Source of the DNA: Marnyiella aurantia
GTDB taxonomy: Bacteria; Bacteroidota; Bacteroidia; Flavobacteriales; Weeksellaceae
DNA: 64,000 nucleotides
Direction: 5' to 3'
Assembly: GCF_014041915.1 (NCBI RefSeq)
Contig: NZ_CP059472.1
Span: 2,542,001-2,606,000 of the forward strand
The position numbers were made by a program, and so were the translations under genes. Under the pieces are notes generated by a model. It was not told where the DNA came from. It did no database searches and saw only the letters and a list, made by a program, of their open reading frames with translations. How positions within the stretch are numbered: position 1 is the first letter of the stretch; every line of letters begins with the position of its first letter. This document shows, piece by piece, positions 58,124 through 59,569 of this stretch.

Positions 58124-58359
58124 CCCCGCTGCCGCACGATTGCATTGCGTGCACGATAATTCTAATGTTATACATCAGCTTATGTGCATCAAAATCCTGG
58201 TGAACCGGGATTGGCTTTTCGTGGCGAGGATTACCGGTACAGCAGCACCATAGATTACGCGGATGGCAAGAACTTCTGGATGGAATTGTGGTTTTCCGGA
58301 TATTTAATTTTTTTATCTTTAAAAGTGGCCACACGATGCAATCGTGCGGCAGCAGGGGG
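58124..58359. repeat. inverted-repeat-bounded element, copy 1 (MITE- or REP-like)
   Basis: About 236 bases. The left end has CCCCGCTGCCGCACGATTGCAT, the right end its inverted counterpart; 18 bases (58128-58145 and 58336-58353) match perfectly in opposite orientation. Each end can also fold alone: GCACG..CGTGC at the left, CACGAT-GCA-ATCGTG at the right. The body aligns with 59374-59569 at roughly 75-80 percent by eye. The body is not convincingly coding: reading frames differ between copies. With 58360-58503 this fills the gap between two genes. Confidence 0.7.
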
Positions 58360-58409
58360 TTTCGCCTAAGTACGGTTGTGTAAGCTCTCCGAAACAGTAT
58401 ATTTTATAA

Positions 58410-58440
58410 ATTAAAACTCCGAAGTTTAGGACTTCGGAGA
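58410..58440 (-). terminator. intrinsic terminator of the minus-strand lipoprotein gene
   Basis: Nine-pair stem CTCCGAAGT/ACTTCGGAG with a five-base loop, followed on the minus strand by TTTTAATTT. Confidence 0.7.
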
Positions 58441-58503
58441 GAAAAGCACAACTTGGTTGCTCAATTTTTTCCAATAACTGCTTAACTGCAGCAGTTAGTA
58501 AAA

Positions 58504-59076
58504 CTACTTATCTAACTTTTTTATAAGAACATCCTTTTTAATTCTTTTATCACTTTTATTGTAGTAAAAAGCTATGGTATTATTACCATTATGGATATAA
58601 TTGTAAAATTTATTTAAACAAGAATTTTTTTCTATGAAGATTGTATCTGTTATCTTTAATTCTTCTCCGAAATCATCGAAAACGCAATCGTTTGAGCCGT
58701 CAGAATTGGAAATACCAAATAAATAGTTTACTTTTAGTCTTCGTATTTGATTAGGATTAAGGATAAATTCGGAATTTAAATCTTCTCCTTTTATTTCATA
58801 AAAATTGGCCAAATTATATCCACTTTTGACGTTTTTCTCATTAAGCATCAATGAAAATTCGCAAAGATTTTGAATTACAACTGTACTGTTAGTTTTATTC
58901 TCTAAAGTAAATTCTAACGGTATATTTAATTCAATTACTCTATAATCCTTATTAAAGCCATGATCCCTAAAAGAAAGAAAAGGGTTTTCCGTAGTTTTAA
59001 TATTACTAATAAATATTTCTTCTGCTGTACAAGAATATAATAATAAAAATACAAACAAGCATAATATTTTATTCAT
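58504..59076 (-). CDS. AT-rich putative lipoprotein of unknown function
   Basis: 190 residues. The signal peptide MNKILCLFVFLLLYSC has a lipobox-like LYSC at Cys16. The mature part has beta-rich, Asn-rich sequence (IPLEFTLENKTNSTVVIQNL, FILNPNQIRRLKVNYLFGISNS) like small Ig-type surface lipoproteins. It is clearly more A/T-rich than its neighbours and lies between two copies of a repeat element, which suggests acquired DNA. Its ATG follows by three bases the stop of a truncated open frame. Not recognised. Confidence 0.65.
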   Translation of the reverse strand: MNKILCLFVFLLLYSCTAEEIFISNIKTTENPFLSFRDHGFNKDYRVIELNIPLEFTLENKTNSTVVIQNLCEFSLMLNEKNVKSGYNLANFYEIKGEDLNSEFILNPNQIRRLKVNYLFGISNSDGSNDCVFDDFGEELKITDTIFIEKNSCLNKFYNYIHNGNNTIAFYYNKSDKRIKKDVLIKKLDK

Positions 59077-59079
59077 TTC

Positions 59080-59268
59080 TTATAGATTTATCAAGTAATC
59101 TCCTACAAATATACATTCTAAAATAGCAACATCATTGTTAATTAATTCCTTTTTTTGCCAGCTGAAAACGGCATGGTGTAAGGTTCCATTATTAACTTCT
59201 TCACTAACCTTTTGTAATCTTGGCCAATAACCGAAACGAATATAAATATAGTTTTTAAATTGGGAAAG
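59080..59268 (-). pseudogene. C-terminal remnant of a gene upstream of the lipoprotein
   Basis: On the minus strand a frame runs open for about 62 codons from the edge of the IS3 relic to a TAA three bases before the lipoprotein ATG. The translation (ending HHAVFSWQKKELINN and CIFVGDYLINL) is protein-like, with balanced composition and FKNYIYIRFGYWPRL, but has no start codon. It looks like the tail of a larger gene cut off by the IS3/repeat insertion, once in operon with the lipoprotein. The family is not recognised. Confidence 0.4.
59106..59113 (-). promoter_or_regulatory. possible -7 promoter element of the AT-rich lipoprotein gene
   Basis: TATATTTG on the minus strand, exact TAnnTTTG, 29 bases before the ATG; it lies within the truncated upstream frame. 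Confidence 0.4.
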
Positions 59269-59373
59269 ATGAAATAAAGCAAATTTACAGAGGTTCAGAT
59301 AGTAAAGATTTTATCTGAACAGAATAAGGGGGAAACAGTGAATGAGATCTGCCGTGAACATGGAATAAGCCAA
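59269..59373 (+). mobile_element. IS3-family transposase orfA relic
   Basis: The translation from 59278 (SKFTEVQIVKILSEQNKGE, then TVNEICREHGISQ) is the N-terminal helix-turn-helix of IS3-family OrfA (IS911-like). The original start is probably the ATG at 59269, but codon 3 is TAA where a Lys is expected, so it is dead. After ISQ the frame passes without break into the CCCCGCT end of repeat copy 2, and the rest of the IS is missing. About 32 codons remain. Confidence 0.75.
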
Positions 59374-59569
59374 CCCCGCTACCGCGCGACTGCATTGCGT
59401 GCACGATAAGTCTAATATTATACATTAGTTTATGTATATCAATCCTAGTGAAGCAGGATTGGTTTCAGTGCGGAGGATTACAGGTACAGCAGAGCCATAG
59501 ATTTCGCGCACGGACAAGGACTTCTGGATGGAAGAGTGCTGTTTTCCGGATTTTGCTTGAAAAGCGGGG
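59374..59569. repeat. inverted-repeat-bounded element, copy 2
   Basis: About 196 bases, starting CCCCGCT and ending AGCGGGG, aligned by eye with copy 1 (58124-58359) over TGCATTGCGTGCACGATAA, TTATACAT, AGGATTAC.GGTACAGCAG and CTTCTGGATGGAA. It lacks the right-hand hairpin present in copy 1, so the two differ by an internal deletion or insertion. It directly abuts the IS3 relic. Bases 59570-59726 hold only one imperfect hairpin. Confidence 0.7.

Follow-up and report, generated by a model that had tools for sequence, protein, structure and literature searches.

Two short repeats between rny and a thioesterase gene in Marnyiella aurantia as probable descendants of a RAYT cassette

Two copies and what they contain

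What are the two similar, inverted-repeat-bounded sequences that stand about 1 kb apart in the gap between rny and a thioesterase gene of Marnyiella aurantia, and how did they come to be there? A first-pass annotation of the window (the whole stretch of 64,000 bases analysed here) took them for copies of an unnamed, non-autonomous dispersed element, moved either by a transposase that recognises its ends or by an enzyme resembling a REP-associated tyrosine transposase (RAYT) that acts on its hairpins. The features of the locus, as we read them, are as follows.

58124..58359, + strand: copy 1, a putative REP-bounded internal-deletion derivative of a RAYT cassette
58128..58152, + strand: left REP of copy 1, tag GCTG plus hairpin
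58152..58323, + strand: RAYT remnant of copy 1, without the catalytic HUH part; its first ~30 bases (58152-58180) are less certain
58329..58353, - strand: right REP of copy 1, inverted with respect to the left REP
58504..59076, - strand: 190-residue open reading frame between the copies, with a start that looks lipoprotein-like by eye
59278..59373, + strand: 32-codon piece of a transposase OrfA (HTH_Tnp_1, E 5.3e-7) that flanks copy 2 on the left and ends at the element start
59374..59569, + strand: copy 2, putatively the same derivative as copy 1, with the right hairpin lost and AGCGGGG remaining at the end
59378..59402, + strand: left REP of copy 2, tag GCTA, eroded
59402..59559, + strand: RAYT remnant of copy 2, frameshifted

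The homology of the two copies, already claimed from the letters alone, is borne out by a search of the own genome with copy 1 as the query, in which copy 2 is 83% identical over bases 1-181 (E 6.4e-45). The longest perfect terminal inverted repeat of copy 1 does have the 18 bases that had been noticed (GCTGCCGCACGATTGCAT), and 7 bases of it, CCCCGCT, remain in copy 2. When up to 3 mismatches are allowed, the window contains 3 instances of a hairpin pattern of which shuffled sequences have 0.01 on average; the instance in copy 2 carries 3 mismatches. The small hairpins annotated in the arms of copy 1 are present but weak when taken singly, folding only slightly better than shuffles (z -1.1 on the left and -1.8 on the right, with -0.5 for the left hairpin of copy 2). 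Copy 1 as a whole folds strongly (z -4.8, with 0 of 200 shuffles equally good) because both of its ends pair with one another. We found no tandem repeat within the element, and the target duplications that might have been expected are not evident in the 20-base flanks of either copy.

The interior of the copies identifies the family to which they belong. Copy 1 translates in one frame as YVHQNPGEPGLAFRGEDYRYSSTIDYADGKN; the translation of copy 2 is split between two frames, which give INPSEAGLV and EDYRYSRAIDFAHGQGLL. Both copies correspond by sequence to the C-terminus of a RAYT. In tblastn searches with the RAYT of a congener (P0001, from genome G003), positions 58181-58270 of copy 1 match residues 142-171 with 67% identity (E 3.6e-9), and positions 59464-59559 of copy 2 match residues 154-185 with 56% identity (E 1.7e-5). 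The catalytic HUH region is absent from both copies, according to the translations and to tblastn with P0001. Judged by sequence, the copies encode no active enzyme and are derivatives rather than functional RAYT members. Since the inside of each copy is a RAYT remnant, they are better described as deletion derivatives of a known cassette than as an unnamed element.

What lies between the end hairpins is chiefly the last ~45 codons of the RAYT gene. The order in the window is left hairpin, CACGATAATTC and gene end: a short stretch from a later part of the gene follows the left REP and precedes these last codons, after which copy 1 has the right REP. The position of this join is unsure: the exact words correspond to residue 112 in 8 of 80 RAYTs, to residue 123 in 7 of 80 and to other places in fewer, and MAFFT places the junction stretch of copy 1 differently from the short exact words. 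The RAYT match is secure from about residue 142 onward.

The genome of M. aurantia is a single contig of 2,613,493 bases, and the one further related place that we found in it is a solitary right-type hairpin at 1458968-1459007. The RAYT option of the first-pass annotation has thus held up, together with REP-type ends; "dispersed" hardly describes a few copies that lie close together in one orientation. A search with the PF01797 profile (E up to 0.01) found no intact cognate RAYT in this genome, its two Y1 places being 842385 (155 residues) and 2154228 (a partial match), and the copies are therefore probably dead and immobile now. The partial match (G000:C1:2154228-2154506; L012 1615-3502) lies in a long open frame that continues, by eye, into an amidohydrolase-like protein.

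The parent cassette and its ends in related genomes

An autonomous element with the same ends does exist, in the form of RAYT cassettes with REPs on both sides in relatives. The congener G003 has a 185-residue open RAYT frame (L023; P0001) whose right hairpin is well preserved and whose left hairpin is eroded. The protein scores above the NCBIfam cut-off for REP-associated tyrosine transposases (87.7 vs 80 bits) and above the Pfam Y1_Tnp cut-off; by eye, the third codon of its expected start is a stop, and open relatives are found elsewhere. A scan of genome contigs yielded 269 RAYT relatives, the best 80 of which we took further. Their hosts are Chryseobacterium, Kaistella, Flavobacterium and other Bacteroidota, and their cassettes run in the order REP, leader, RAYT, inverted REP. 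The first-pass annotation had asked whether a transposase gene carries the same ends. By a loose test, outward hairpins stand upstream at 74, downstream at 71 and on both sides at 66 of the 80 RAYT loci, 76 of which have flanks long enough for the test; 44 of 491 random stretches from the same loci also pass. Conservation of the stem is partly built into this result, because the rule demands an arm within two changes of CCG[CT][AG]CGA; the tag in front of the stem lies outside the rule. A few of the passing hairpins look spurious (for example, L052 downstream), and one long-loop pair (L048) was missed.

From these loci we derived a working REP consensus consisting of a C-run, GCT[G/A/C], CCGCRCGA, a loop and TCGYGTGG. 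Of the 145 hairpins, 134 have a tag of GCT followed by G, A or C, and none has GCTT. At the third stem pair 137 of them have G-T; at the fifth, 90 have A-T and 47 have G-C. In the 133 hairpins that combine a GCT tag with a complete flank, C predominates at each of the five positions before the tag (68 to 92%). Both ends carry a GCT tag in 59 cassettes; 45 of these have an identical variable base at the two ends, against an expectation of 20.3, and 14 have different ones. None of 20,000 permutations reaches 45, in a procedure that takes no account of relatedness. When the 45 matching rows are placed on a tree, at least 14 changes of tag are required, and no alignment column stood out clearly as a code by which RAYT residues might specify the tag base. 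With the consensus, the REPs of Bacteroidota RAYTs, so far poorly described, can be located easily, and the tendency of the variable tag base to match at both ends offers a direct target for studying DNA recognition by RAYTs.

Of 320 genomes of the family, 121 contain the REP pattern, and the listed control counts are 0. Further copies in related genomes, which the first-pass annotation had proposed to look for, are indeed found: copy 1 has matches in 107 of the 320 genomes, mostly RAYT ends or hairpins, with two candidates scored per genome, so that match counts are lower bounds. The annotation had also held that its reading would fail if the copies were parts of a conserved coding gene; they are so only in the sense that the gene is a mobile element's own transposase.

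Front-deleted derivatives with a hairpin occur in three further genomes, namely G003 (L024, with both hairpins present), G271 (L115) and Flavobacterium ajazii (L045). The joins lie clearly near residues 126-131 in L024 and L115 and, by eye, near 136-139 in L045, and these data do not distinguish one old event from several. We considered a deletion point common to three lineages at the HDN codons and rejected it, given the joins of L024 and L115 near residues 126-131 and the short, discordant words of the window copies. The genome G052 carries an open 185-residue RAYT (L181) and six listed REP-bounded units, five of them distinct, of 222-278 bases. These were defined by outward REPs with up to 3 mismatches and account for 11 of the 44 REPs that the fetched stretches contain; the other 33 are unpaired. 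Their spacers have no RAYT match, which is consistent with unrelated spacers being carried between paired REPs. At L201 (G052:C2:1391300-1393000), REP-bounded units of ~240 bases, each with an AT-rich spacer that has no RAYT match, stand head to tail. A second, different RAYT-like gene of 202 aa is seen by eye in the congener G002 (L022 8579-9187), where it has its own repeated hairpin, GCGCAAAGTCAGGAGACTTTGCGGAGCG, and adjoins a remnant of the RAYT type described here.

We also recorded where REPs lie with respect to Rhs genes and replication. Of 120 listed REPs, 33 are no more than 5 kb away from a listed Rhs core end, where uniform placement would give 0.96; counted as clusters, the figures are 21 of 78 and 0.62. 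These counts cover 30 of the 121 REP-bearing genomes and 150 of 350 Rhs matches, and include 12 of the 24 REPs of G023 and 12 of the 59 of G052. Much of this association is common to mobile genes in general, because rve-type transposases, used as a control, also lie near Rhs, with 9 of 77 clusters (REPs and rve transposases differ at p 0.024 by Fisher's test). A scan for Rhs motifs was positive at 7 of 30 REP loci, 5 of 80 RAYT loci, 0 of 27 loci with copy 1 matches and 1 of 8 stretches from the window and its genus. In G003 (L023 and L024), REPs of the RAYT type stand beside a polymorphic-toxin fragment and an Rhs core end; the RAYT adjoins an open frame that matches Tox-MPTase4 (E 5.6e-11; L023 4566-5003, L024 1-1494), and the REP hairpin is read through as RPHERIRAAAG in open frames. 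In G052, whose arms were set by eye from 20 sampled stretches, REP orientation is 18+/12- in the negative-skew arm and 4+/11- in the other (p 0.057), or 12+/8- and 2+/8- (p 0.058) when neighbours within 10 kb are merged; a replication-strand bias is suggestive only.

A broader scheme can be imagined, in which Bacteroidota RAYTs repeatedly spawn miniatures by losing the gene front and keeping its end beside a REP, perhaps through cryptic cleavage within the gene, the tag read by the enzyme, GCT plus one base, changes in concert at the two ends of a cassette, and the hairpins settle preferentially in Rhs toxin-tip arrays. We regard this scheme as improbable; if it were true, mobile hairpins could help to shuffle Rhs tip modules.

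History of the locus and competing accounts

The 3' part of rny was found in all eight relatives searched. Elements are missing from the interval to the thioesterase gene in G259 and G280 (spacing ~80 bases), in G246 (~160 bases) and in G002, where a diverged membrane gene lies in between; rny and the thioesterase gene are close together in these four genomes, which speaks for the account of the locus preferred below. G252 has two diverged membrane genes in the interval, and in G003 and G262 the thioesterase gene was not found within the fetched flank of rny. No C-terminal RAYT remnant is listed in the loci L168-L174.

In the congener G001, the syntenic locus (L021) contains four copies, three of them incomplete, with other genes between. 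The first is complete, the second is without the left end, the third is without the right part, and the fourth, which stands in place of copy 2, is without the right hairpin. The loss of this hairpin from copy 2, as originally described, is therefore seen in its counterpart as well. The first copy and the right side of the last one match the window, and between them blastn finds element matches only. Copy 1 is 88% identical between the two species and its flanking alignments about 88 and 81%; because copy 1 has diverged like its left flank, we infer that the array predates the split of M. aurantia and G001. The OrfA fragment beside copy 2, which we take to be of IS3 type, has no match in this locus or elsewhere in L021-L024, and the 190-residue frame between the copies has none in the congener's syntenic locus and no family match above a curated cut-off.

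We consider it probable (roughly 0.8) that the copies are dead, non-autonomous descendants of a RAYT cassette near subclass 2.6 (group 5), presumably once mobilised by such an enzyme. A RAYT acting in trans would have recognised the REP hairpins as single-stranded DNA, as is described for RAYT groups 2 and 3 in the available part of PMC8266576. The shortened unit would have moved, or been duplicated, into the gap between rny and the thioesterase gene before the split from G001; copy 2 would later have lost its right hairpin, and unrelated genes and the transposase fragment would have come to lie between the copies. Neither a target duplication nor an exact empty site could be fixed, and transposition of the shortened form rather than local duplication is for this reason unproven.

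A different history, that segmental duplication or recombination multiplied one old RAYT remnant and the shortened form itself never transposed, is possible but doubtful. It would account for the confinement of the copies, the solitary hairpin apart, to ~1.5 kb in M. aurantia and 4.6 kb in G001 in one orientation, and for the internal structure that the copies of both genomes share. However, when non-corresponding copies of the two species are compared, the matches stop at the element ends or within 11 bases of them, so that each duplication would have to stop there too, and front-deleted derivatives with a hairpin exist in the three other genomes named above.

Retention for function, as a conserved structured RNA or terminator element, might be suggested by the presence of copy 1 at the same place in both species and by its good fold as a whole. 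We rejected this very unlikely account: Rfam gives no match up to E 1, hairpins have been lost and frameshifts acquired among the copies, and the interspecies identity of copy 1 is no higher than that of its flanks. A classical MITE, with a DDE transposase acting on the 18-base terminal inverted repeat, is likewise very unlikely, although the small size, the inverted ends and the OrfA fragment adjoining copy 2 all recall such elements. The association of the ends with a Y1 transposase speaks against it: the same type of ends flanks the Y1-type RAYT gene in 66 of the 80 relatives, and the inside is itself RAYT sequence. The OrfA piece, moreover, is without a match at the congener's syntenic locus, and no flanking duplication is evident.

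Comparison with known systems

By sequence, the parent cassette appears closest to RAYT subclass 2.6, the group 5 REPtrons of Bacteroidetes, as these are presented in the available part of PMC6006769. The motifs given there are NH[LIV]H, YIH[QN]NP and WQ, and the ends are said to lack GT[AG]G, to be weaker and to have needed manual inspection. Among our 80 RAYTs, [NS]H[LIVM]H is found in 78 (SHVH in P0001) and Y[IV]H[NQ]NP in 68, and in 77 the conserved W is followed by R. The likeness thus extends to the HUH and Y[IV]H[NQ]NP motifs, the phylum, the flanking hairpins without a GT[AG]G tag and the hairpin copies elsewhere in genomes. Unlike the members described in that part of PMC6006769, the window copies are without the transposase core and the relatives have WR instead of WQ, and because of this last difference the assignment is provisional, subclass 2.6 being the closest and not a proven home. 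The end consensus of C-run, GCT[G/A/C] and hairpin comes from our 145 hairpins and not from PMC6006769, as far as its available part goes.

The elements also resemble the TIR-flanked RAYTs and TIR repeat families of PMC3733652, in which inverted repeats bound RAYT genes and derivative repeats are moderately abundant; in the part available, the TIRs are said to bear no relation to GTAG repeats, and we set them beside the present ends by description. Our literature search, which covered mostly open-access papers and their main text, found no description of a derivative of this kind and no paper on RAYT together with Rhs or on REP-associated tyrosine transposases together with Flavobacterium.

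A REPIN is an inverted REP pair. REPINs and BIMEs, proposed in the available part of PMC2817692 to be non-autonomous elements moved by RAYTs, are like the window copies in their inverted REP pairs, but differ from them in that the spacer here is a RAYT remnant of ~150-170 bases and the copy number is very low. What was an unnamed element becomes a fossil of a known enzyme family. The element is already of a known kind, and the window copies are a further, degraded and largely ordinary example of it.
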